A DNA stretch of 33,282 bases from Sulfurimonas sp. (lineage in GTDB: Bacteria; Campylobacterota; Campylobacteria; Campylobacterales; Sulfurimonadaceae): assembly GCA_013791885.1 (NCBI GenBank), contig VMSZ01000053.1, positions 1-33,282 of the forward strand, written 5' to 3'. The position numbers and the translations under genes were made by a program. Shown piece after piece: positions 115 to 14,459 of the stretch. How positions within the stretch are numbered: position 1 is the stretch's first letter; each line of letters starts with the position of its first letter. The notes beneath the pieces are model-generated. The model saw only the letters and a list, made by a program, of their open reading frames with translations. It did no database searches and was not told the DNA's origin.

Positions 115-1011
115 ATGCCATGGCATGTGGAAATGCTTTATGAGAAAATGTTAACGCTTTTATTGAAACAAACTCTCTGTTCTTCTGTGTTGGGTGTTTT
201 CTTTTTGAATGGATGTACTCATATTCCCACATTGGATGAACGAAAATCTACAGTTTTAAATCTTTCCTTTGACAAAGCTGCAATACAGGCAGAGTTACAA
301 ACTTCCTCTTTCACTCTCTTCAGTATACAAAAACTCTCAAACTCTTGCGAAAACAAAGATATGAAAGTATACATAGAAGGTGATGGCCTCTCGTGGATTA
401 CCAAACGCCGAATATCTGATGATCCCACTCCGCTATATCCTGTGGGACTCTCACTTATGCTTAGTGATGAGAGCAGTTGTAAAGTTTACATTGCCAGACC
501 TTGTCAGTACGTAAAACAGAGCATCTGTGAAAATAAATACTGGACTTCACACAGATTCAACACTAAGATTATCCAAAGCTTTGATGAAGCCTTGGATAAT
601 CTTAAAAAAAATCATAAAAACAGTACCTTCACTCTTGTAGGTTACTCAGGCGGTGCAGCTGTAGCGGCATTAACAGCTGTAAACAGAGAAGATATCAGTA
701 AACTTATAACAGTTGCAGGTAATTTAGATACGAATGAATGGACAGAATTACATCATATTATGCCACTTGAAGGTTCACTTAATCCTGCTGACTTCACAAG
801 AGTGCTGCAAAATATACCCCAGTATCATCTCATAGGAGAGAACGATACCATAGTTCCTAAAGAGATATTTTTTTCTTACTTCAATAAGTTTGAAAACAAA
901 AACAATGTAAAATACTTCACTTACGATGCAACACACAGCTGTTGCTGGGGTGAAATATATAAAGAATTTTTAAAAGGTGCAAAAACAGATGAGTCAACAA
1001 AAAACAGATAA
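115..1011 (+). CDS. Alpha/beta-hydrolase-like lipoprotein
   Basis: Predicted serine hydrolase of the alpha/beta fold, probably anchored in the cell envelope. Numbered from the ATG at 115, it has a hydrophobic segment at about 13-32 ending in the lipobox LNGC (C34), a nucleophile elbow GYSGG (S178), a candidate acid in GENDTIVP (D244) and a candidate histidine in ATHSCCW (H274). These are in the right order for a Ser-Asp-His triad. The ATG at 115 is the outermost start. The in-frame ATG at 148 gives a neater 22-residue lipoprotein signal and is preceded by GAGAAA, so it may be the true start. The 3' end overlaps the next gene, which suggests translational coupling. Substrate unknown; an esterase, lipase or peptidase are all possible. 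Confidence 0.65.
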   Translation: MPWHVEMLYEKMLTLLLKQTLCSSVLGVFFLNGCTHIPTLDERKSTVLNLSFDKAAIQAELQTSSFTLFSIQKLSNSCENKDMKVYIEGDGLSWITKRRISDDPTPLYPVGLSLMLSDESSCKVYIARPCQYVKQSICENKYWTSHRFNTKIIQSFDEALDNLKKNHKNSTFTLVGYSGGAAVAALTAVNREDISKLITVAGNLDTNEWTELHHIMPLEGSLNPADFTRVLQNIPQYHLIGENDTIVPKEIFFSYFNKFENKNNVKYFTYDATHSCCWGEIYKEFLKGAKTDESTKNR

Positions 1012-2437
1012 ACCAAAAGAGCAAAATATAAACTTTACCTACTCTGCAAATATTGTAGAATTTTTAAAACAGATAAAATCCACAATCGTTATGACCACAT
1101 ACCAAAGCGGCAAAATAATGCTTATGGGACAACACAACAATCAGTTTGACATACGCTACAAAGAGTTTGCAAGACCTATGGGAATGTACGCAAAAGGCGG
1201 TAAAATATGGGCAGGTTTAGGTCACGGAATCTACCAGTTTGCAAACTACAGTGGAGTTACATCTAAGCTAGAAGATGGAAAAACTTATGACGCATGCTAC
1301 CTCCCTCAAAATATTCACTTTACAGCAGATGTTGATATACATGAGATGGAATATACTAAAGATGAACTCTATTTCATAAACACAAAGTTTTCGTGCTTGT
1401 GTATTAAAGAACCAAACAGCAGTTTCAAGCCTATTTGGAAACCGCCTTTTATATCTCTGCTTCAGCCCATAGATAAGTGCCATTTGAATGGTTTTTGTAC
1501 CAGAGACGGTGAACCCCGTTATGTAACAGCCTTAGGACAGACAGATGAACCACTGGGCTGGAGAGCCAATAAAGCTAATGGCGGTATTCTTATGGATATT
1601 ACCACAAACAAAATATTGGCCAAAGGTTTAAGTATGCCGCACTCTCCAAGATGGCATCAGGAGAAACTTTGGCTTCTTGAATCAGGCAAAGGCGCTCTTT
1701 CCTACTATGACTTTAAAAAGAAAAAAGTTATAGAAGTAACAAAACTTCCCGGATTTACCCGAGGGCTTACAATGGTGGGAGACTTTGCGTTTATAGGCCT
1801 TTCAAAAGTAAGAGAGAGTGCAACATTCAGCGGACTAGAGATTACGAAACTGCCTAAAAGAGTGAGTGGTGTCTGGGTTGTAAATATTAAAACAGGGAAG
1901 ATTGTCTCCTTTATTGAGTTTACTTCCGGAATAGATGAAGTGTTTGCAGTTGCTGTACTTCCACATGCCAAGATGGAGATGTTCGACTTTGATAGTGAGT
2001 ATTCAAAAGGAAACTATCTCATAGCATCCGAAGATATAGAACAAGTTAAAATGCCAGAGACAAAGCTAGAGAGAGCTGCACCTCTCTTTGAAAAAGGAAA
2101 TGACCTTTTTAATGAAAATAAAAAAGAAGAAGCTATAGAAGAATTTAAAAAAGCGCTTGCCATTCAGAGTGACTATTTGCCTGCCACATTTAACATGGCA
2201 GTTGCCCTTGGTGATTTAGGAAGATTTGATGAAGCATTGGCAATACTCAAAGATGTAATGGACAAAGATGCCTCCATACTTGAAACATACGATTCTCTAG
2301 GCTATCTTTACTATAAAAAAGGTGATTTTAAAGCAGCACGAGAAGAGTACAAAAAAATCTTAGAGCTTGATCCAAAAAATGCAAAAGCTAAAAACTCTCT
2401 TGATATATTGAGAAAAGAACAAAATGCCAAGTCTTAA
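989..2437 (+). CDS. TIGR03032-family protein with C-terminal TPR repeats
   Basis: The first 340 or so residues match what I know of the TIGR03032 family: an opening block of the type FTYSANIVEFL, then TYQSGKIMLMG, the phrases ALGQTDEPLGWR and MPHSPRWH, and a repeated beta-propeller-like pattern. The last 110 residues or so form TPR repeats (for example EALAILKDVMDKDASILETYDSLGY-type helices). No signal peptide is visible, so it is probably cytoplasmic. The family's biochemical role is not established to my knowledge. An in-frame GTG at 977 is possible, but AAAAGG at 971-976 sits directly against it and is better spaced for the ATG at 989. The gene overlaps the hydrolase upstream and the GNAT-like gene downstream, so the three probably form one operon. 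Confidence 0.72.
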   Translation: MSQQKTDKPKEQNINFTYSANIVEFLKQIKSTIVMTTYQSGKIMLMGQHNNQFDIRYKEFARPMGMYAKGGKIWAGLGHGIYQFANYSGVTSKLEDGKTYDACYLPQNIHFTADVDIHEMEYTKDELYFINTKFSCLCIKEPNSSFKPIWKPPFISLLQPIDKCHLNGFCTRDGEPRYVTALGQTDEPLGWRANKANGGILMDITTNKILAKGLSMPHSPRWHQEKLWLLESGKGALSYYDFKKKKVIEVTKLPGFTRGLTMVGDFAFIGLSKVRESATFSGLEITKLPKRVSGVWVVNIKTGKIVSFIEFTSGIDEVFAVAVLPHAKMEMFDFDSEYSKGNYLIASEDIEQVKMPETKLERAAPLFEKGNDLFNENKKEEAIEEFKKALAIQSDYLPATFNMAVALGDLGRFDEALAILKDVMDKDASILETYDSLGYLYYKKGDFKAAREEYKKILELDPKNAKAKNSLDILRKEQNAKS

Positions 2438-3814: not shown

Positions 3815-4816
3815 GTGCAAAAAAATACAATAAAAAATCTTCTCAGACTCAATGACGAACCTTATACTTATGTAGATGAGATGACTTCTCACAATATCTT
3901 AATTGATAATTGCAATGAGTTTATGGAAACTCTTGTAAAGTTTTATAATGAATGGAGCGATTTCGAAACTGATATAAAACTACCGCTTAAACAAGTCTTT
4001 GTGAACAATAATGACATAGCTGGAGATTACAGACTAATGCCATGTTCGATTGAAAGTATGCATTTGAAATTTGTTAAAATCATAGGGACAAATGAAGAAC
4101 AAAGAAAAGTAAAAGATAAAATCAGTGTTGGCAAGGCACTTTTGATTGATTATTTTGATAATTACGCGTATGCTGTCTTTGATGTTTGTGCTTTCTCATC
4201 GTTTAGAACAGCTGCTATATCTGTACTTGCACTGCATTGTTCAAATATTTCTCTAGAAAAGGTTGGTATTATTGGCACTGGACGGATTGGCTTTTACACA
4301 GCATTTATTCTTTATAAGTGGCATAACATCAAGTCGTTTACTGTTTGCGATACAAATGAAAAAAATTATCAAAATTTTGTAGCCCTCTGTAAACATTATA
4401 TGCCTGATGTAACCATAGAACATAAACAAAAAGAATCACTTTTAAATAATTCAGAAGCAGTTTTTCTTGCAACAACTGCTTCTGAATCTTTGTTAAATGT
4501 CTCCAACAGCAAACACATAAGATTTATTTCAAGTGTCGGGGCAGACGCTGATAATCTAAGTGAAATAGATGCTTCACTATTGAATAGTCATAGACTTATT
4601 ACTGATTCTTTTCAATCAACATGTTTAGGTGATATGAAAAAATGGAACCTTAATACAAGAAGCGATACTATCCCTACAGAACTAAAACATTTTATACTTG
4701 AAAAATATCAAGAAAATTTAAAAGTGTTATTTATCTCTACTGGCATAGCAGTGCAAGATGCTCTTATATGTAAATTTATTTATGACAAAATGAATGCGGT
4801 TGATCACAATATTTAG
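3815..4816 (+). CDS. Ornithine cyclodeaminase / mu-crystallin family oxidoreductase
   Basis: NAD(P)-dependent enzyme of the OCD/mu-crystallin family, whose members include ornithine cyclodeaminase, alanine dehydrogenase (Archaeoglobus type), ketimine reductases and SbnB. The Rossmann dinucleotide motif GIIGTGRIG lies at about 151-159. Before it are MHLKFVKIIG, which matches the family's substrate-lysine region, and SSFRTAAISVLAL, which matches the conserved RTAA helix. Length (333 aa) is normal. The start is taken as GTG at 3815 because AAAGG at 3804-3808 is six bases upstream; a TTG at 3809 touches the ribosome site. It leads a four-gene + strand cluster with two ATP-grasp ligases and a BKACE, so it probably makes or reduces an unusual amino or imino acid for them. 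The exact reaction is unknown. Confidence 0.78.
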   Translation: MQKNTIKNLLRLNDEPYTYVDEMTSHNILIDNCNEFMETLVKFYNEWSDFETDIKLPLKQVFVNNNDIAGDYRLMPCSIESMHLKFVKIIGTNEEQRKVKDKISVGKALLIDYFDNYAYAVFDVCAFSSFRTAAISVLALHCSNISLEKVGIIGTGRIGFYTAFILYKWHNIKSFTVCDTNEKNYQNFVALCKHYMPDVTIEHKQKESLLNNSEAVFLATTASESLLNVSNSKHIRFISSVGADADNLSEIDASLLNSHRLITDSFQSTCLGDMKKWNLNTRSDTIPTELKHFILEKYQENLKVLFISTGIAVQDALICKFIYDKMNAVDHNI

Positions 4817-4876
4817 ATTAGATGAGGAACTTTAAAGTTATAGTAAAAGTCGATCTAACAATCAAAGGAAATAAAA

Positions 4877-6667
4877 ATGCGAATCACGACCAAACTCTTC
4901 CATGGTCCCAATATATATGCGAATGTTCCCATAGTTTTGATTACGATAAAAGTGCTTTCTGCACAACCTGAAGTTCTTATTGAGACTTGTAAAGAGATAG
5001 AAAAGTTATTGCCAAACTATGTCGATGAAAACATCTCTAAAATTCTTACACCTTATACACACTTTGGTATGTTGATGTCTAATTTTGCCTTCAATCTTAT
5101 AAATAAAAATAAAGGACTTCTAACTTCGTATGGGGCTAAAGAGAGTAGTGATGCCATTTTAAGTTGGGTAGAGTTCGACACACCCGAAGTAACTTTAAAA
5201 GCTATTGAACTTTTTTTCAATATTTTTCTACCATTGTTGCAAAAAAAACAACTATCAAGTGCCGCAATAGATCAGGCAATTGTCAACTACGCAGAGTTTG
5301 CTAAAAAATATAGTAACTACGATTACGAATTATTGTCAGGATCAAAATCTTTAGATATCCCATCGTTTAAATTCATGACAAATTCTCTTTATAGACAATA
5401 TGGATGGGGAAAAAACAGTCGAGTGTTTAGAGGCAGTTCGCCTATGGAAGACAGCTATCACGGAGTTTTTGTTTCTATGGATAAAGTGGCTAGTAAAGAG
5501 CTCCTCAAAAGCATCGGAATGCCTGTTGTCAAAGATGTCGTTATTCAGTCCAGAGAACAATTACAAAAAGCGGCGGAGACGATAGGCTATCCCTGTGTTG
5601 TTAAGCCCATACGAGGAGCCCAAGCAATAGGTATTAGTGTCAATATACTATCTTTTGATGAACTTCAAAATGCATTTGACCACGCAAAACAATCCTCATT
5701 CGGAAACAACCCAATTATGATTGAAGAAAATATAAATGGATATGCTCATAGAATACATGTAGTACGAGGGAAATTTTTTGTTTCCATAAAAAAAATGCCT
5801 CCTATTCTCATTGGTAATGGTATATCAACGATACAAAGCTTAATCGAAGAGATCAATATACAGCGGATGGATGTACGAAAAAACCCAGATTCTTTAAAGC
5901 AGATACAAATCAATGATGAGCTAATCGTGTATCTCAAGAAGTTTCATTTAACACTTCAAAGTATCTTATCAGATAATCAAGAATTTCAACTAAGTACAAC
6001 ATTTACATATGGAGTACATGGAGCTTCAATAGAAAACACAACAAATATTACACATCCAGACATTATACATATGGCAGAGGCTATCGCAAAAGTCACACAT
6101 ATTGATATGTTGGCTATCGACTATATTACAAGTGACATCAGTAAGTCTTTTCATGAGATAAAAAGTGCGATCTGTGAATATAACCATACACCAGGTTTGG
6201 GGTCATTAAAGGTATTAGGTGCTTCTTTATATACTCCACTCGAAGTTGCTAGAACTTTTATAGGAGACGAGGTAGGAAGAATTCCCATATTTTTGGTGCT
6301 TGTTGAAAATTCTCATTTGGGAAAAATAGATACTTGGTTTATAAATAATATAAAAGAGAGTAGTGTTGGGTATATGTGTGGTGACAAAGTAGCTGTTGGA
6401 AGGTTTGTTTTGAATACGTACGAATCACAAGGGTGGGATAGTGCAAAGATGTTACTGCGTCAAAAAACGACAGACAAGGTCTTTTTAATTTGTGACAAAG
6501 AAGAAGTTTTGGAAAAAGGGCTTCCCGTAGATAGCTTCGATACAATATTTTATGATCAGATTACAGATGATTGGCTGGTAGTTCTTGACAATGCTACAGC
6601 AAGATTGCAAAAGTATAGTCAACTGGATGTACTTTTTGAACTTCTAGAAAAAGAATTGTCTAATTAA
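4877..6667 (+). CDS. Cyanophycin-synthetase-like ATP-grasp ligase, first copy
   Basis: An ATP-grasp amino-acid ligase, 596 aa. Residues 1-170 or so form an N-terminal domain like that of CphA. YGWGKN (about 175) and GVFVSMDKVASKELLKSIGMPV match the CphA entry into the ATP-grasp fold. GYPCVVKPIRGAQAIGI, EENINGYAHRIHVV and IGNGISTIQSLI follow in the family order, and EYN (about 434-436) is the metal-binding E-x-N. From GRIPIF (about 466) the alignment continues into the CphA Mur-ligase region, but the GTNGKTT P-loop is absent and the protein ends about 130 residues later. It therefore should ligate one bond using a single ATP site. AAAGGAAATAAAA precedes the ATG. This is not a full cyanophycin synthetase. 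The substrates are unknown. Confidence 0.8.
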   Translation: MRITTKLFHGPNIYANVPIVLITIKVLSAQPEVLIETCKEIEKLLPNYVDENISKILTPYTHFGMLMSNFAFNLINKNKGLLTSYGAKESSDAILSWVEFDTPEVTLKAIELFFNIFLPLLQKKQLSSAAIDQAIVNYAEFAKKYSNYDYELLSGSKSLDIPSFKFMTNSLYRQYGWGKNSRVFRGSSPMEDSYHGVFVSMDKVASKELLKSIGMPVVKDVVIQSREQLQKAAETIGYPCVVKPIRGAQAIGISVNILSFDELQNAFDHAKQSSFGNNPIMIEENINGYAHRIHVVRGKFFVSIKKMPPILIGNGISTIQSLIEEINIQRMDVRKNPDSLKQIQINDELIVYLKKFHLTLQSILSDNQEFQLSTTFTYGVHGASIENTTNITHPDIIHMAEAIAKVTHIDMLAIDYITSDISKSFHEIKSAICEYNHTPGLGSLKVLGASLYTPLEVARTFIGDEVGRIPIFLVLVENSHLGKIDTWFINNIKESSVGYMCGDKVAVGRFVLNTYESQGWDSAKMLLRQKTTDKVFLICDKEEVLEKGLPVDSFDTIFYDQITDDWLVVLDNATARLQKYSQLDVLFELLEKELSN

Positions 6668-6712
6668 CTGTGTAGTTTTTTTTCAAAATATATAAAAAAG
6701 GTTTAGTTTAAA

Positions 6713-8068
6713 ATGAATTTTACAATACATAAAGCATTAGCGCAAGATAAAAATGATATTTTGGAAGTTTTAAAACCTTGGAATATGCATCGTATCCCAT
6801 CTCCAGAAGCAGAAGATATTGATTTTTCATGTTTTTTTGTAGCAAAAATGTCTAACAAAATTGTTGGAGTTGCTGGCTTTAAAATACTAGGTAAAGGTAA
6901 GGCAGAAACCAGATTGTTGGCAGTTCTTCCGGACTTACAAGGCACAGGGATTGGGAAAGCACTTCAAGAAACCAGACTTGAAGCCATGTATGAATTAGGT
7001 ATTCAAACTGTTCTTACAGAAGCTGATAGAGATGAAATAATAATTTGGTATAAAAAACATTGCGGCTACAAAGAAATTGGCAAACGAGCAAAATTATCTA
7101 ACCATGGCCTGAGTACTAAGAGCTTTTTTGTTGCACTTGAATTAGACCTTAATCAATATATGAGGAATAAAACAAAAAAGTCTGAATCTATAAGTCATTA
7201 TATTGCATCTCACGATCCGCATCCCCTTTCCCCATATATGCCACTTATTATAAATGTAGCTTTAACCGGAATGATACCCACGAAAATATCAACACCTTTT
7301 GTACCCATTTCTGTTGATGAGATTATTGAAGATGCCATAAATGTTTGTGATGCAGGCGCAAGCATAGTTCATTTGCATGCTAGAGATCGAGAAGGAAAAC
7401 CTAGCAGCGATGCACGTTATTATGAACAAATCATCGCTGGAATAAAGAGTGAAAGACCTCATTTAATCTGTTGTGTTACCACATCCGGAAGAGATGGCAT
7501 ATCTTTTGAGCAAAGAAGTGAGGTTTTACATTTAACTGGCAAGGCAAAACCTGATATGGCAAGTTTAACTTTAGGGTCTCTCAACTTTCTTTCTGGAGCA
7601 AGTATAAATTCTCTTGATACAATACAAAATTTAGCTATGCTCATGAAAGAAAAAAATATTAAGCCTGAGCTTGAAATATTTGATAGCGGTATGATAAATG
7701 TTGCAAAATATCTTGAACGCCACAATATAATAAGCGGCAGTAAATATTTTAATATTTTGCTCGGTAATTTAAATACAGCATCTGCTACAATCAGTGATTT
7801 AGCTCATATATATACATCTTTACCCGAAAATTCTGTTTGGGCAACAGCAGGATTAGGAAGTTTTCAACTCCCTATGAATATGGCTTCTATAATTGCAGGC
7901 GGGCATGTTCGTGTAGGTATAGAAGATAATATTTATTATGATTCAAATAAAAATAATTTTGCAAGCAATAAGTCATTAGTTGATAGAGTAGTAAAAATTG
8001 CGCACGAGCTGGAGAGACCGATAGCTACTCCTTCATATACACGAAACATTCTTAATCTTGATTTATAG
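6713..8068 (+). CDS. GNAT acetyltransferase fused to a beta-keto acid cleavage enzyme (BKACE/DUF849)
   Basis: Two enzymes in one chain of 451 aa. Residues 1-145 or so are a GNAT domain: VGVAGFKILGKGKAETRLLAVLPDLQGTGIGKALQ contains the acetyl-CoA loop Q-G-T-G-I-G-K. After a linker, residues 178-451 are BKACE (DUF849): HLHAR (H220, H222) and GGHVRVGIED (H398, E404) supply the metal ligands and are strongly conserved. GSLNFL and ELEIFDSGM also fit the family. BKACE enzymes use Zn and acetyl-CoA to cleave 3-keto acids (Kce acts on 3-keto-5-aminohexanoate), giving acetoacetate and a CoA ester; the reverse or a related condensation is conceivable. The pairing of an N-acetyltransferase with BKACE suggests both act on the same amino-acid intermediate. 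It lies between the two ATP-grasp genes. Confidence 0.83.
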   Translation: MNFTIHKALAQDKNDILEVLKPWNMHRIPSPEAEDIDFSCFFVAKMSNKIVGVAGFKILGKGKAETRLLAVLPDLQGTGIGKALQETRLEAMYELGIQTVLTEADRDEIIIWYKKHCGYKEIGKRAKLSNHGLSTKSFFVALELDLNQYMRNKTKKSESISHYIASHDPHPLSPYMPLIINVALTGMIPTKISTPFVPISVDEIIEDAINVCDAGASIVHLHARDREGKPSSDARYYEQIIAGIKSERPHLICCVTTSGRDGISFEQRSEVLHLTGKAKPDMASLTLGSLNFLSGASINSLDTIQNLAMLMKEKNIKPELEIFDSGMINVAKYLERHNIISGSKYFNILLGNLNTASATISDLAHIYTSLPENSVWATAGLGSFQLPMNMASIIAGGHVRVGIEDNIYYDSNKNNFASNKSLVDRVVKIAHELERPIATPSYTRNILNLDL

Positions 8069-8077
8069 GAGATGCTC

Positions 8078-9817
8078 ATGAGGGACAATATAGATACAAA
8101 CTTGAGAGATTTGCCAACACCAAGGAAACCCACAATGCAAAAAACTAATAATAGTAAAAAAAATTTATTAAATTCACAACAACCTACAAAACAATACAGA
8201 GTAAATTTAACGCTTCCCAATATCATTAATTTAGACTTAGTTGATGCATGGATAAGTCAGGTACTTGAGATAGATGAAGATACTTCATGCAACGGCAGTG
8301 ACATGAATAAACTTGCATATAAAGCACTTTTTATAATAAAAAACTTGTTGCAAAATTCACAAATCCCCGCTTTTTATACAGGTACAGTTGTCAATATAAT
8401 TTCCCAAGACAATAACAGCTATGCGATTGATTTGGCAATTGTTGATATTAATTTTATTGATGATGCACATGTAAAAAAAACTGTCAACTTTGCGTTTAAA
8501 GTACTTTTTTGGATGATGAAAAATGAAATCACACCTCAAAATAGGCAAGAGTTTTATAAGGCCTGTCTCAATGAGATAATCAATCCTATCACATCCGTAC
8601 AGCCAATCGGGATATCTAGAATCCATACTTTAAAGGCAGCATATTATAAAAATATTCCTTTTATACATTTGGGCGATGGAGTTTATCAGCTCGGCTGGGG
8701 AAGCAAGGCGAAAAAGTTAGATAGAAGCATAAGTGAAGCTGACAGTGCAATTGGTTCCAAGCTCTCACAAAATAAAGTCAATACTGCTAATTTACTTAGA
8801 CTCGCTGGATTACCCGCTCCATTGCATGGAGTCGTAAACAACAACGCAAATGCACTGCATGTAGCAAAACAACTTGGCTATCCTGTGGTGGTAAAACCCT
8901 CGGACCTTGATAGAGGTGAAGGTGTAAGTGTTGACATCACGCATGACACCCAACTTATAAAAGCATTTGAAGAAGCATTCACACTCTCTAAGTCAAAAAA
9001 AATTTTAGTTGAAAAGCAGGCTAAAGGAATGTGTCATAGACTATTTGTGGCACAGAACGAATTACTGTATGCGGTTGAAAGACTCCCTATTTCCGTAAAA
9101 GGTGATGGCATAAAAACAGTAGCCCGATTGATAGATGAAGCAAATAACATTCAAAATGCAAGAGCTCCGTGGCTTAGGTCTAAGCCGTTTCCACATGACG
9201 CTTTAGCATACAAAGAAATTGAAAAACATGGGTTTAGTTTACACTCTGTTCCAAAAGAAGGAACTTGGATACCGCTAAGAGATATAGAATCTACAAAGTG
9301 GGGAGGACGAAGTGAAAATGTTACAGAGATAGTGCATCCTGATAATATTGATATTGCTATCAGAGCCGCTAAACTCTTTGGATTGAATATTGCAGGAATA
9401 GACATTATAACTGCAGACATCTCCCAACCCTGGTATCAAACAGGTGCAATTATCAATGAAGTGAATTTTGCTCCTATGTTTGGTGTAGGAGAGACATCAC
9501 GGAGCTCTATGCCGGCTTTTTTTGATAAGTTTATAGAAGGAGACGGGAGAATCCCTCTGGAGATATTTGTAGGGGAAGATGAAGAAACTCTTAAAAAAGC
9601 AAAACGCAGACAACAAAAGCTCATAAAAACAGGCTTGAGATGCTATTTGTCAACTGCCATGATAACTTTTGATGAGAGAGACAGTGAAGTTAAATTTATG
9701 CATCACAGCATCTTAATGAAAGCGCAGGCACTATTACTCAATCACAATGTGGATGCAGTAATATTTGTCGTTGAAACTGAGGGAATAAAGGAAGTTCTGC
9801 TTGAGCGTCTTGGATAG
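8078..9817 (+). CDS. Cyanophycin-synthetase-like ATP-grasp ligase, second copy
   Basis: An ATP-grasp ligase of 579 aa, paralogous in layout to the gene at 4877. It has an N-terminal domain to about 200, then YQLGWGS (about 203) and ISEADSAIGSKLSQNK, close to the CphA core. GYPVVVKPSDLDRGEGV, VEKQAKGMCHRLFV, VKGDGIKTVARLIDEAN and the catalytic EVN (about 461-463) follow. After GRIPLE (about 490) comes a short Mur-ligase-like remnant without a P-loop, ending in VDAVIFVVETEGIKEVLLERLG-type sequence. The start is ATG 8078: GGAG at 8068-8071 is six bases upstream, whereas ATG 8072 abuts it. The stop of the BKACE gene lies inside this ribosome site, so the two are tightly coupled. It probably makes a second amide bond in the same product. 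Confidence 0.82.
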   Translation: MRDNIDTNLRDLPTPRKPTMQKTNNSKKNLLNSQQPTKQYRVNLTLPNIINLDLVDAWISQVLEIDEDTSCNGSDMNKLAYKALFIIKNLLQNSQIPAFYTGTVVNIISQDNNSYAIDLAIVDINFIDDAHVKKTVNFAFKVLFWMMKNEITPQNRQEFYKACLNEIINPITSVQPIGISRIHTLKAAYYKNIPFIHLGDGVYQLGWGSKAKKLDRSISEADSAIGSKLSQNKVNTANLLRLAGLPAPLHGVVNNNANALHVAKQLGYPVVVKPSDLDRGEGVSVDITHDTQLIKAFEEAFTLSKSKKILVEKQAKGMCHRLFVAQNELLYAVERLPISVKGDGIKTVARLIDEANNIQNARAPWLRSKPFPHDALAYKEIEKHGFSLHSVPKEGTWIPLRDIESTKWGGRSENVTEIVHPDNIDIAIRAAKLFGLNIAGIDIITADISQPWYQTGAIINEVNFAPMFGVGETSRSSMPAFFDKFIEGDGRIPLEIFVGEDEETLKKAKRRQQKLIKTGLRCYLSTAMITFDERDSEVKFMHHSILMKAQALLLNHNVDAVIFVVETEGIKEVLLERLG

Positions 9818-9961: not shown

Positions 9962-10765
9962 TTACACCACTACAAACCAAGGATTTAGCAGATTTTCTTT
10001 GTTATACAATACACATTTCAAGTTAAAAGTATTTGATGTCAAGTATCCTGCGGCAGTTATACTTTCATCATAAATGTAAACATTCTTACCGCTCTCAAGC
10101 ACTATCGCATGTGCAGCGGCTGTGTCCCATTCCATTGTCGGAGCAAGACGGGGATAGATATCTGCCACACCCTCGGCAACCATGCAAAGTTTTAAACTGC
10201 TTCCTTTTGAGGACAACTCTATATGTTTTGCAGTAAGTGCTATTTTATCTATAAAATCTTGCGTTTGAATAGAGAGATGTGATTTTGAAGCCACTGCCGT
10301 TAAACTTTCTTGCGGATTACTATTAAGAAATAGAGGCATTTTTTGTCCATTTTTAAAAGCGCCCTCTCCTTTTTTTGCATAATAAATCTCATGAAGTGCC
10401 GGTGCATATACAACACCTAGAACAGGGATATGATTAGCAATAAGAGCTATATTTACCGTAAATTCATCATTTTTCTTGATGAATTCTTTTGTTCCGTCTA
10501 TCGGATCTATACACCAATAATATTTCCAATTTTTTCTTGTCTCATAATCTACCTGCTTGTTTTCTTCTGACATTATTGGAATGTTTGGATACAGCTCCGC
10601 TAATGCTCTGCAAATTATTTCGTTTGATTTTTTATCTGCCTCGGTAAGCGGTGAACTGTCCTCTTTATACTCTACAGTAAAATCTTTTTTGTATATTTCC
10701 ATAATAGCGCTGCCGGCTGAGAGAGCTATCTGTTTAATATCTTCTATATCTATTTGTTCAATCAT
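9962..10765 (-). CDS. cysQ: 3'(2'),5'-bisphosphate nucleotidase
   Basis: Inositol-monophosphatase superfamily enzyme that hydrolyses PAP to AMP, relieving the inhibition PAP exerts on PAPS-using enzymes. Visible motifs are PIMSEEN (metal glutamate), DPIDGTKEFI (the family's DP-D-GT motif with the TKEF extension typical of CysQ) and EWDTAAAHAIV near the C-terminus. Length of 267 aa is normal. The ATG overlaps the end of cysC by eight bases, so they are translationally coupled. Context in an APS/PAPS operon supports PAP rather than inositol phosphate as the substrate. Cytoplasmic or peripheral. Confidence 0.9.
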   Translation of the reverse strand: MIEQIDIEDIKQIALSAGSAIMEIYKKDFTVEYKEDSSPLTEADKKSNEIICRALAELYPNIPIMSEENKQVDYETRKNWKYYWCIDPIDGTKEFIKKNDEFTVNIALIANHIPVLGVVYAPALHEIYYAKKGEGAFKNGQKMPLFLNSNPQESLTAVASKSHLSIQTQDFIDKIALTAKHIELSSKGSSLKLCMVAEGVADIYPRLAPTMEWDTAAAHAIVLESGKNVYIYDESITAAGYLTSNTFNLKCVLYNKENLLNPWFVVV

Positions 10766-11360
10766 TTATGTAACCATTTTGCAGCAGATAATCTATAATC
10801 AGCTGGACACTTTCTCTGAGAGTTGTTTCAGCAGGTTTAAGATGTATTTGCGCATGTCGAGGTGGTTCATAAGGGCTGTCTACCCCGGTGAAGTTTGCTA
10901 TCTCTTTATTTCTGGCTTTTTTATACAGTCCTTTAGGGTCTCTTTGTTCACAAATTTCAAGAGGTGTGTCTACAAAAATTTCTATAAATTCACCATCTTC
11001 GAGTAGGCTTCCCGCTATTTGTCTATCACTCTCAAACGGACTGATAAAAGCGCTTAAAACAATAAGCCCGGCATCTACAAAAAGCTTGCTGACTTCACCG
11101 ATTCGACGGATATTTTCTATTCGCTCATCTTCACTAAAGCCTAAATCTTTGTTGAGTGCGTGTCTTACATTATCACCATCAAGAAGATATGTTTTAATAT
11201 TTCTTTGAAACAGCTCCGCTTCAAGTACATTTGCAATTGTAGATTTACCGCTTCCGCTAAGCCCTGTAAACCATAAAACGCAAGGCTTTTGTTTGAATGA
11301 TTGTGCTCTTTTTTCTTTAGTGATACTTTGATTATGCCAAACTATATTTTTATCCATCAT
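10758..11360 (-). CDS. cysC: Adenylylsulfate (APS) kinase
   Basis: Phosphorylates APS to PAPS using ATP. P-loop GLSGSGKST at 33-41; DGDNVRH at 61-67 carries the conserved DGD motif and the APS-contacting arginine; GFSEDERIENIRRIGEV and AFISPF follow, the serine of the latter being the residue phosphorylated in some CysC enzymes. KNFTGVD-like NFTGVDSPYEPP closes the fold. At 200 aa it is a standalone enzyme with all motifs intact. It starts in ATGA overlap with the DUF2061-kinase gene before it and overlaps cysQ after it. Compare the degenerate sister kinase at 11357. Confidence 0.93.
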   Translation of the reverse strand: MMDKNIVWHNQSITKEKRAQSFKQKPCVLWFTGLSGSGKSTIANVLEAELFQRNIKTYLLDGDNVRHALNKDLGFSEDERIENIRRIGEVSKLFVDAGLIVLSAFISPFESDRQIAGSLLEDGEFIEIFVDTPLEICEQRDPKGLYKKARNKEIANFTGVDSPYEPPRHAQIHLKPAETTLRESVQLIIDYLLQNGYIND

Positions 11361-12082
11361 TTTACATATCTTTTTTTGATATATTTTACAATAACCTCAA
11401 CGGACTCTTCAATAGATTCTTTATCCGTATCTATCACTATCTCAGCATGCTGGGGTTCTTCATAGATATCATTCACGCCCGTAAAATTTTTATATTCACC
11501 TCTGATGGCTTTTTCATATTTCCCTTTTGTGTCTCTGGCCTTACAAGTTTCTATGTCAGCCTTTACATAAACCACACAATTATTTTTTACCATATCCCTA
11601 ATTGCTTTTCTGGATTCTCTATAGGGGCTTACAAATGAAGCTACTGTTGAAATAGAGTTATTTTGAAGAGTTTTTATAAGATGCCCTATGCGGTACATAT
11701 GCATATTTCTCTCTTCTCTGCTGAATCCAATATCAGGTATGAGTTCTCTTACATCTTTAGAGTCTATTCTCTCAAGAGGAATATCCAGTTTCGCGAGTTC
11801 TTTAAATACGGCATCAGCTAGTGTTGTCTTTCCGCTAAGAGGCAATCCGGTGAACCAAATATTGAAAGGTTCTACCTTTTTTCTGCCCCATTTAATTTGA
11901 ACCCAAAGCCTTTCATGCACCCAATAAAGTAGAATTTTTACAAAACTCTCAACAACTCCGGCAGCAATCGCCAAGTCAAGTCTTCCAAAGAAAATATAAA
12001 CAATTATTACAGTTGTTGCGGTAGCAAAAATCCTCCAGCTAACCCCTTTGGCAATTGAACGAAGATTTTTATCTTTATACAT
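11357..12082 (-). CDS. DUF2061 membrane domain fused to a divergent APS kinase
   Basis: Residues 1-65 or so are a DUF2061 domain with two membrane helices (about 15-33 and 38-56; RSIAKGVSWRIFATATT and VVESFVKILLYWVHER are characteristic). From about 72 it is an APS-kinase domain: P-loop GLPLSGKTT at 79-87, SFVSPY and KNFTGVNDIYEEP. The DGD motif of CysC is replaced by D107-S108-K109, and the ENIRR block by MHMYR, so APS binding or phosphate transfer may differ. The start is the ATG at 12082, which shares one base with the cysN stop (TAATG) and has CAAGGAA upstream. An in-frame GTG at 12103 is less likely. It could anchor the PAPS-making enzymes at the membrane or act on another substrate. The fusion is clear; the activity is not. 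Confidence 0.8.
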   Translation of the reverse strand: MYKDKNLRSIAKGVSWRIFATATTVIIVYIFFGRLDLAIAAGVVESFVKILLYWVHERLWVQIKWGRKKVEPFNIWFTGLPLSGKTTLADAVFKELAKLDIPLERIDSKDVRELIPDIGFSREERNMHMYRIGHLIKTLQNNSISTVASFVSPYRESRKAIRDMVKNNCVVYVKADIETCKARDTKGKYEKAIRGEYKNFTGVNDIYEEPQHAEIVIDTDKESIEESVEVIVKYIKKRYVK

Positions 12083-13533
12083 TAAATTTCCTTGCAATTC
12101 CACTCAGGATATGTATTTCTGATGTATGCATTGAGGTCTCTTTCTTCTTGTGAATATTTTCTAGTATCTGTCGGAGTATTCCCCAATATAGAAGAGATTA
12201 CCATCCCTGCGCCTACTGTTTCATTTGTATATTTGTCTATGACTATAAAGCTTCCTGTGTTTCTGTTTTTTTCATAAGAATCTACTGCAATGGCCCTGTC
12301 TAAATTTAAAGTACATTTTGCGATATCATTTAAATCTAATGTATTTGCTTTTAATTCTTCGAATGTATTAATATCTTTTTTATATACGATGGAATGAAAG
12401 CTGCCATTTATTACAGACGTTGCTCTTTTGATGATATAGTTTGCGTTTAACTGCATCGGTACTTCATTCATCCACACCAGCATTACACTGAATTTATTTG
12501 AAACATCAAGAGTAGAATCCGATTTTACTATCATATCGCCTCTGCTGATGTCTATTTCATCTTCAAGTGTCAGTGTCGTGGACATAGGTGCGAATGCTGT
12601 TTGTATAGTCTCTATACTTTCATCTTTTAATTTGGGTCGAAGCTCTTTTATATCGTTTGAAACTATTGATTTTACTCTGCTTGTTTTTTTAGACGGAAGT
12701 ACGGTTATTGCATCTCCCACACTAATACTTCCGCTTGCTATAGTTCCGCAGAACCCTCTAAAATTCAAATGTGGACGGTTTACGTACTGAACAGGAAATC
12801 TAAAATTATTATTTTCTTCTCTCTGAAGGTCTATCGTATCTAAAAGTGTCATAAGAGGTGCATCTGTATACCATGATGATTTTTTACTTACATTTACTAT
12901 GTTGTCACCGTCAATAGCTGAGATAGGAATATATTTAAAGGTTATCCCTTTATGGCTTGGCAGTTTAGGAATTATTCTTTCATACTCACTTTTTATCTGT
13001 GCAAATTTTTCCTCTGAAAAATCTACCAAGTCCATTTTATTAATAGCTACGATGATATTTTTAATACCAAGAAGTGAGACTATATAAGAATGTCTTTTTG
13101 TTTGAGTAAGAACTCCTAGTCTTGCATCTATCAGTATTATGGCGATATCTGCAGTAGATGCACCGGTTACCATGTTTCTGGTGTATTGTTCATGCCCTGG
13201 TGTGTCGGCTATGATAAATTTTCTTTTTTGGGTTGAAAAAAATCGATAAGCTACATCAATGGTTATGCCTTGTTCTCTTTCGCTGGCAAGTCCGTCAACC
13301 AAGAGAGCCAAGTCTATCTTATCACCTGTAGTTCCACTTTTTTTACTATCTTTTTCTATAGCACTTAACTGATCATCAAATATCTTTTTACTGTCGTATA
13401 AAAGCCTACCAATGAGGGTTGACTTTCCATCATCAACACTTCCGCAAGTTATAAATCTGCATATTTCTTTATTTTCATGCTCTTTGAGGTACTTTTCAAT
13501 ATTTTTGGCTATTAACTCTGAGTCATACGCCAT
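12082..13533 (-). CDS. cysN: Sulfate adenylyltransferase subunit 1 (GTPase)
   Basis: The GTPase subunit of ATP sulfurylase, related to EF-Tu. G1 is GSVDDGKST at 31-39, G3 is DTPGHEQ at 111-117 and G4 is NKMD at 166-169. GTP hydrolysis by CysN drives APS formation by CysD. REQGITIDVAYRFF is the switch I region typical of CysN. The beta-barrel domains follow to residue 483. There is no fused C-terminal CysC kinase, consistent with the two separate kinase genes downstream. The start codon overlaps the cysD stop by one base (TAATG), and the same junction occurs at its own 3' end. Role: assimilatory sulfate activation, cytoplasm. Confidence 0.94.
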   Translation of the reverse strand: MAYDSELIAKNIEKYLKEHENKEICRFITCGSVDDGKSTLIGRLLYDSKKIFDDQLSAIEKDSKKSGTTGDKIDLALLVDGLASEREQGITIDVAYRFFSTQKRKFIIADTPGHEQYTRNMVTGASTADIAIILIDARLGVLTQTKRHSYIVSLLGIKNIIVAINKMDLVDFSEEKFAQIKSEYERIIPKLPSHKGITFKYIPISAIDGDNIVNVSKKSSWYTDAPLMTLLDTIDLQREENNNFRFPVQYVNRPHLNFRGFCGTIASGSISVGDAITVLPSKKTSRVKSIVSNDIKELRPKLKDESIETIQTAFAPMSTTLTLEDEIDISRGDMIVKSDSTLDVSNKFSVMLVWMNEVPMQLNANYIIKRATSVINGSFHSIVYKKDINTFEELKANTLDLNDIAKCTLNLDRAIAVDSYEKNRNTGSFIVIDKYTNETVGAGMVISSILGNTPTDTRKYSQEERDLNAYIRNTYPEWNCKEI

Positions 13534-14459
13534 TAAAAGTATCCCTCTTGTTTTTTCTTCTCCATCGAAGCATTGCTGTCACCGTCTATAAGCCGTCCCT
13601 GCCGTTCACTTGTTGTAGTAAGCAGCATTTCTTGAATGATTTCAAGCAAAGTAGAAGCCGAAGAATTCACAGCACCTGTAAGCGGATAACACCCGAGTGT
13701 TCTAAACCTTACAAGTTCTTCTTTTGCGGTATCTGCCAGCTCTTTTGGCATCCTCTCATCATCTACCATGATTTTAGTGCCCATATACTCTATTACAGGT
13801 CTTTTTTTTGCAAAATAAAGTTCTGGTATCGAAATATTTTCCAGATAAATATATTGCCAAATGTCCAGCTCCGTCCAGTTCGAAAGAGGAAATACTCTTA
13901 TACTTTCACCTTTTTTATGTCTTGCGTTATAAATATTCCAAAGCTCAGGTCTTTGATTTTTAGGATCCCACCTGTGATTTTCATCTCTAAAAGAGTAGAT
14001 ACGCTCTTTGGCCCGGCTTTTTTCTTCATCACGTCTCGCTCCCCCAAATACAGCATCATATTTTTTAAGATTAAGTATCTGCTTTAAGCCTTCTGTTTTC
14101 ATGATATCTGTATGAAGTTCTGAACCGTGGGTAAAAGGTGAGATGTTCATCTCATCGCCTTTAGGATTTGAATAAACAATAAGCTCCATACCGACTTCTT
14201 TGGCACGGCGGTCACGAAATTCTATCATTTCTTTAAATTTCCATTTGGTGTCTACATGCACAAGCGGTAATGGCGGGATGGAAGGATAAAATGCTTTTTG
14301 AAGGAGATGAAGCATCACGGAACTGTCTTTTCCTACACTGTAGAGCATAGCCGGATTATCAAACTCTGCGATAACCTCTCTCATAATATGAATAGATTCT
14401 GCTTCTAATTGCTTAAGGTGTGTTAACTTAGTGGCTTGATCCAAAATAATCCTCTTCAT
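13533..14459 (-). CDS. cysD: Sulfate adenylyltransferase subunit 2
   Basis: The catalytic ATP pyrophosphatase-type subunit of ATP sulfurylase: ATP + sulfate gives APS + PPi. The PP-loop-like motif SVGKDSS is at 41-47. [17 protein letters not shown] is the family's N-terminal signature, and [21 protein letters not shown] and [15 protein letters not shown] are also characteristic. Length is 308 aa against about 302 in enterobacteria. No strong ribosome site is visible before the ATG, but the N-terminus aligns with known CysD. It follows the small unknown gene by 36 bases and couples to cysN through TAATG. Confidence 0.94.

Follow-up and report, generated by a model that had tools for sequence, protein, structure and literature searches.

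BKACE (DUF849) enzymes, which include the Kce of lysine fermentation, have been described mostly from degradation. Among amide-forming systems, the closest described relatives of the locus considered here are the cyanophycin synthetases CphA1 and CphA2, and the synthetase of N-acetylglutaminylglutamine amide (NAGGN; TIGR03103), in which a GNAT is fused to the same type of ATP-grasp ligase and an N-acyl dipeptide is produced. The reaction established for the BKACE family yields acyl-CoA and acetoacetate (PMC11961710), and a DUF849 enzyme, BsfD of flavophos biosynthesis, can also transfer acetyl to carbon and has Phe in place of Tyr at the position of Kce residue 145 (PMC12871164). For cyanophycin synthetase, the ATP-grasp residues of TeCphA1 are K220, K261, R309, R323, D431 and E450, and we follow the numbering of that protein throughout (PMC9427784).

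As a locus with which to compare these systems, we considered a stretch of 33,282 nucleotides from Sulfurimonas sp. (contig VMSZ01000053.1, hereafter the window). An earlier note, made from the sequence alone, had described in it four compact plus strand genes encoding an OCD-family enzyme, two CphA-like ligases and a GNAT–BKACE fusion, and had not recognised this combination as a described pathway. The open reading frames (3809/3815-4816, 4877-6667, 6713-8068 and 8072/8078-9817, all on the plus strand, with gaps of 60, 45 and 3 bp in this order) and the Pfam and NCBIfam matches bear out both the gene arrangement and the family assignments, and our literature searches for the enzyme combination found no paper describing such a pathway. 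The cluster is real, conserved, rare and modular, and is a variant of ATP-grasp-based amide biosynthesis for which we found no description.

Enzymes of the four-gene cluster

The first gene (3815..4816, plus strand) encodes an OCD-family NAD(P)-dependent enzyme (Pfam OCD_Mu_crystall, 5.9e-19; 68.6 bits against the PF02423 cut-off of 24). Its start is better placed behind AAAGG at GTG 3815, the codon already chosen in the earlier note, than at TTG 3809. The protein belongs to a distinct subfamily, its nine relatives, which come from several phyla, being 43-51% identical to it, and R75, K90, R133 and D246 are invariant in an alignment of 10 OCD members. Its AlphaFold2 model (pLDDT 84) has its best PDB folds in pyrroline-2-carboxylate reductase, ornithine cyclodeaminase, SbnB and AlaDH. 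It shares the fold and the family motifs of SbnB and the OCD family, and its best named model is TIGR03944, SbnB (3.4e-19), but it reaches only 69 bits against a cut-off of 326.9 and the cluster has no SbnA-like partner; all NCBIfam scores against the curated equivalogs, ornithine cyclodeaminase proper and SbnB, fall far under the cut-offs. Its probable substrate is an imine or an amino acid, converted with NAD(P)H.

The two ligases, LigA (4877..6667, plus strand) and LigB (8078..9817, plus strand), align to cyanophycin synthetase along the N domain and the ATP-grasp and on into the Mur domain, which is shortened, and cyanophycin synthetase models match both (2.8e-71 for LigA, with PRK14016, and 1.1e-70 for LigB). 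The Mur P-loop GTNGKTT is gone in each, and with it the active Mur domain of the CphA1 type, which leaves the layout of CphA2, namely an N domain, an ATP-grasp and a truncated Mur domain without P-loop. Residues 6-564 of LigA align with CphA2 7ta5; its ATP/Mg residues are retained, its nucleotide loop is altered, and it has all of the ATP-grasp residues listed above except R323, which is Lys. The AlphaFold2 model of LigB (pLDDT 82) gives as best PDB matches CphA1 and CphA2, including 7ta5 and 8fxi, and all aligned LigB members retain every one of these residues, an intact ATP-grasp.

LigB nevertheless differs from CphA2 in its linkage to OCD and GNAT–BKACE, in a [DE]RGEG nucleotide loop, in EST where CphA2 has AN[LI], and in the replacement of H267 by Arg, of N394 by Ser/Thr and of R458 by Gly, R458 being missing in CphA2 7ta5 too. 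LigB members thus lack both the aspartate-recognition residues of CphA1 (N394, R458) and the catalytic H267. They have in common a signature ([DE]RGEG, IE[ST]T or VEST, and P..G) whose motifs are absent from CphA1, CphA2 and the NAGGN-type protein, and also from LigA apart from the last Gly. All LigB members fall in one clade (support 99/98), and LigA lies on a long branch with unsure placement. Because of this specific signature, LigB is predicted from the alignment to take a different incoming amine from those of CphA1, CphA2 and NAGGN synthetase, and, since its substrate residues are altered, this cyanophycin-synthetase-derived subfamily is expected to form amides that are not cyanophycin.

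The third gene encodes a single protein of 451 amino acids with both of its domains recognised by Pfam: a GNAT domain at residues 1-147 (6713..7153, plus strand; PF00583, 6.2e-11) and a BKACE domain at residues 177-449, which together with the C-terminal residues and stop codon occupies 7241..8068 (plus strand; PF05853, 1.9e-82). Its TAG stop at 8066-8068 forms part of TAGGAG, the ribosome site of LigB (8066..8071, plus strand), as read directly from the sequence, and the coupling that had been noted for one gene pair is therefore real. ATG codons for LigB are found at 8072 and 8078; the spacing is better for 8078, and 8072 is also possible.

The acetyl-CoA pyrophosphate loop of the GNAT, QGTGIG, is intact and conforms to Q/R-x-x-G-x-G/A, QG.G.G is present in all six aligned GNAT–BKACE proteins of the genus, and amino-acid N-acetyltransferases are among the models and structures closest to the GNAT. 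Of the N-acetylated product suggested earlier, the N-acyl/acetyltransferase stands, but the group transferred may be an acyl other than acetyl. The BKACE domain scores 277 bits against a PF05853 cut-off of 24.8 and keeps the Zn-site and catalytic residues of Kce (equivalents of H46, H48, E143, R226, E230 and D231). It differs from Kce in having Ile for E14, in being fused to a GNAT, a fusion found in either order, and in standing with amide ligases and in no known degradation cluster; the E14 replacement and the gene context disfavour a Kce acting as in lysine fermentation. An anti-phage defence system was also considered and dropped, as none of the four cluster proteins has a match in PADLOC-DB.

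Distribution within and beyond Sulfurimonas

An initial scan of GTDB contigs with LigB alone gave no matches, and the OCD alignment then gave relatives. Using OCD-alignment scans and whole-genome profiles, we surveyed 135 genomes of the genus and found OCD in 5, LigB in 9 and intact GNAT–BKACE in 5. In each of the five genomes with OCD, the cluster also contains LigB. Across the 135 genomes, and with no correction for phylogeny, the hypergeometric p for genome-level overlap is 3.6e-7 for OCD with LigB and 4.6e-5 for GNAT–BKACE with LigB, and the overlap of OCD with GNAT–BKACE is weak (p 0.011). These statistics place LigB at the centre, with OCD and GNAT–BKACE as its alternative or joint partners.

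The gene order is GNAT–BKACE, LigB, OCD in G373; GNAT–BKACE, LigB in G361; OCD, LigB in G464 and G017; and LigB, OCD and a TauD-family hydroxylase in G445. These five appear to occupy one chromosomal site, from argH/OsmC to HIT/pheS, with varying gene content and order, the loci of G017 and G445 being cut on one side by the contig end. In G497 the GNAT–BKACE and LigB genes are flanked, as the cluster of the window is, by TIGR03032 and by cys genes, and G012 has two GNAT–BKACE copies, each between RimK-like ATP-grasps and one also with a GCS2-like ligase. LigB adjoins OCD in all five OCD genomes of the genus, LigA and GNAT–BKACE standing between the two in the window, and GNAT–BKACE adjoins LigB (four loci) or RimK-like ligases (G012) at every Sulfurimonas locus, that is 6 loci in 5 genomes. 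The full four-gene order was found in the window only, and LigA was not found in any other genome searched among the 135. The conserved neighbourhood for which the earlier note proposed a search holds as co-occurrence and not as a gene order. What is conserved is a modular set centred on LigB, joined by OCD, by GNAT–BKACE or by both, in which RimK-like ATP-grasps can replace LigB.

Intact OCD and GNAT–BKACE occur together in only two genomes, that of the window and G373; elsewhere each has a ligase but not the other and, as they are mostly apart, they may make different parts of a product or different products. About 10 kb from OCD-LigB in G464, a lone GNAT fragment of 127 amino acids (L051:126-509), 70% identical to the GNAT of the window and with the BKACE part missing, is perhaps a decayed GNAT–BKACE fusion.

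Of the 10 loci of the close OCD subfamily, 8 include a ligase, either LigB or one of the RimK-like type, in the cluster; more distant homologues (about 23-34% identity, L018-L034) adjoin other genes and were left out. Outside the genus, Desulfuromonas has a radical SAM gene, LigB and OCD in this order, a gammaproteobacterium has OCD and LigB side by side, and Sulfurovum has OCD with a RimK-like ligase homologous to those beside GNAT–BKACE in G012. No match to OCD was found on plasmids or viruses. Most tellingly, in G1061, from the phylum of Desulfuromonas, the domains of the fusion are reversed in a protein of 457 amino acids (BKACE 23-295, then GNAT 307-457), directly after the stop of which LigB begins, and in G900 a fusion in the window order (56% identity) lies beside a diaminopimelate-decarboxylase-like gene. 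The cassette families thus recur jointly at different sites and in several phyla. Possible tailoring genes at homologous loci are those for a radical SAM enzyme in L010 and a VioC/GntD-type hydroxylase in L014; the latter (L014:2052-2999) is of the TauD family, near GntD/VioC (arginine or enduracididine beta-hydroxylases), and directly follows LigB-OCD.

We also inspected nine unfused BKACE relatives (L070, L071, L120 and L122-L127). A hexapeptide acyltransferase is adjacent or within about one gene for seven of the nine, overlapping BKACE by 4 bp in L070, L126 and L127 and lying close by in L071, L122, L123 and L124. Glycosyltransferases or DegT aminotransferases are encoded at some of these loci (L070, L071, L122-L124, L126 and L127), DegT aminotransferases at L070 and L071. 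The acyltransferase of L127 is nearest to WxcM-like and QdtC proteins and N-acetyltransferases. Since BKACE stands beside acyltransferases, genomic context suggests that it may provide them with acyl-CoA, and its pairing with a GNAT fused in both orders or with an adjacent enzyme of the hexapeptide type points to a biosynthetic supply.

Flanking genes and the cell surface

Upstream of the cluster, the window encodes an FSH1-type hydrolase/lipoprotein (115..1011, plus strand; Pfam FSH1, 8.2e-8), homologues of which lie near ligB in L048 and L010 and without ligB in L095, and a TIGR03032 (DUF4915) and TPR protein (977..2437, plus strand). The TIGR03032 family is present in 6 of the 135 genomes, and four of these six carry ligB within about 10 kb (co-occurrence p 1.3e-4). 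On the other side lie sulfate activation genes on the minus strand (9962..14459), namely cysQ, cysC, a second cysC-like gene, cysN and cysD; such genes adjoin ligB in L048 too, and L085 has a cysD-cysNC-ligB arrangement. As regards sulfation of a product, the genome of the window, 2.52 Mb in size, encodes a single PF13469 sulfotransferase, on another contig. The second APS-kinase-like protein (11357-12103), beside the normal cysC, has an N-terminal hydrophobic segment.

Near LigB loci we repeatedly found an autotransporter or other large surface protein, an FSH1 hydrolase, TIGR03032, a subtilase and sulfate activation genes, and a link of the cassette to the cell surface is possible. TIGR03032/DUF4915 is accompanied by large surface-type proteins (autotransporter, DUF4347 and others), FSH1-type hydrolases or subtilases in the window (977-2437) and in L084, L085, L048, L095, L096, L098 and L120. 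This module occurs both with and without ligB and looks like an undescribed surface-protein module; our literature search on the cassette found no mention of TIGR03032. One LigB is part of a 993-aa fusion of TPR, a LicD-like domain and LigB (L006:152-3133), followed by a cytidylyltransferase gene, and in L085 TPR-LicD and the cytidylyltransferase have genes of their own, near ligB. G877 encodes BKACE close to TIGR03032 and to a large repetitive protein; of the several other genes there, the one tested is PaaK-like.

Proposed pathway and alternative readings

The enzyme families, the intact catalytic residues, the conserved linkage, the fusions in both orders and the distinct LigB subfamily are seen directly, and the enzyme logic of the cassette is well supported, as is the amide-ligase logic put forward earlier. 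With about even confidence, we propose a mobile, modular cassette whose product is a small molecule, N-acylated and amide-linked, that is made with neither ribosome nor NRPS. BKACE would join a beta-keto acid and acetyl-CoA to give acyl-CoA and acetoacetate, and the fused GNAT would move that acyl group, or acetyl, onto the amine of an amino acid. The OCD-family enzyme would use imine/NAD(P)H chemistry to make or reduce an unusual amino acid, LigB would activate a carboxylate as an acyl phosphate with ATP and join it to the incoming amine, and LigA, in the strain of the window, would form a second amide bond. The beta-amino-acid product, compatible solute, metal ligand or storage dipeptide suggested in the earlier note are candidates for what is made. 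We infer the order of these steps, the hand-over of acyl-CoA from BKACE to GNAT and the part of OCD as precursor supplier. More tentatively, the cassette may represent an NRPS-independent N-acyl-peptide pathway in which a bifunctional enzyme makes its own acyl-CoA through BKACE and hands it to the fused GNAT, followed by a CphA2-derived ligase subfamily. Against the pathway stand the presence of intact OCD and GNAT–BKACE together in two genomes only, the G900 fusion, which has no ATP-grasp neighbour, and the OCD loci L012 and L017, where no ligase adjoins; BKACE could also act as a C-acetyltransferase or in degradation. If the pathway is true, BKACE gains a general biosynthetic role as maker of acyl donors for acyltransferases, glycan-type loci included, and the cassette, small and without carrier proteins, suits heterologous expression.

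That the product is instead a compatible solute analogous to NAGGN, with the GNAT using acetyl-CoA, LigB coupling the N-acetylated amino acid with a second one and BKACE doing no more than supply or remove a beta-keto acid, seems to us unlikely. NAGGN synthetase combines a GNAT with this type of ATP-grasp, TIGR03103 matches LigB (1.6e-34), the window GNAT resembles amino-acid acetyltransferases and the open reading frames of the cluster include no transporter gene, all of which would agree with such a solute. LigB, however, reaches 119 bits against a TIGR03103 cut-off of 569 and lacks two motifs, ANL..GG and PG, that CphA ligases have in common with the NAGGN-type protein; BKACE, and not the ligase, is the fusion partner of the GNAT, and the ligase is separate, CphA2-like and has other motifs; and the cluster adds OCD and has no open reading frame for an asparagine-synthase-like amidotransferase. 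The cassette is also rare in the genus, unlike a general osmolyte, and the recurring BKACE-acyltransferase pairing suggests a special acyl group. We consider it rather improbable that a building block is made for a surface protein or glycan and not as a free metabolite. This would account for the surface-type company of many LigB loci, with DUF4347 protein, TPR-LicD, cytidylyltransferase and sulfate activation genes, for TIGR03032 with LigB in four of six genomes, for the single TPR-LicD-LigB protein of L006 and for the DegT aminotransferases and hexapeptide acyltransferases that accompany BKACE relatives, but no such genes lie close to the cassettes of the argH-pheS site and the adhesin module is also found without LigB (L095).

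For BKACE itself, we regard as very unlikely a C-acetyltransferase activity like that of BsfD, giving a beta-diketone rather than acyl-CoA. All six aligned GNAT–BKACE proteins have Phe at the Kce-145 position, as BsfD does, but Phe also occupies it in the Fusobacterium BKACE and in one encoded in a protocatechuate (pca) cluster, both of which would be expected to catalyse cleavage; the residue is therefore not diagnostic of the reaction, and we rejected it as a sign of chemistry of the flavophos kind. It is scarcely credible that mobile genes have come together at integration sites by chance or for catabolism, with no joint product: the patchiness of the cassette in the genus and the varying gene content and order at the argH-pheS site would be expected in that case, but the same families are together at different sites and in several phyla, their genes are compactly coupled, the fusion exists in both orders, and amide ligases consume ATP, which argues against catabolism.

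BKACE proteins close to that of the window are also encoded on a Streptomyces plasmid (L065:5299-7685) and a Salmonella plasmid (L066:549-4745), with ribA, gamma-glutamyltransferase and methyltransferase genes, and these may be flavin-antimetabolite clusters.
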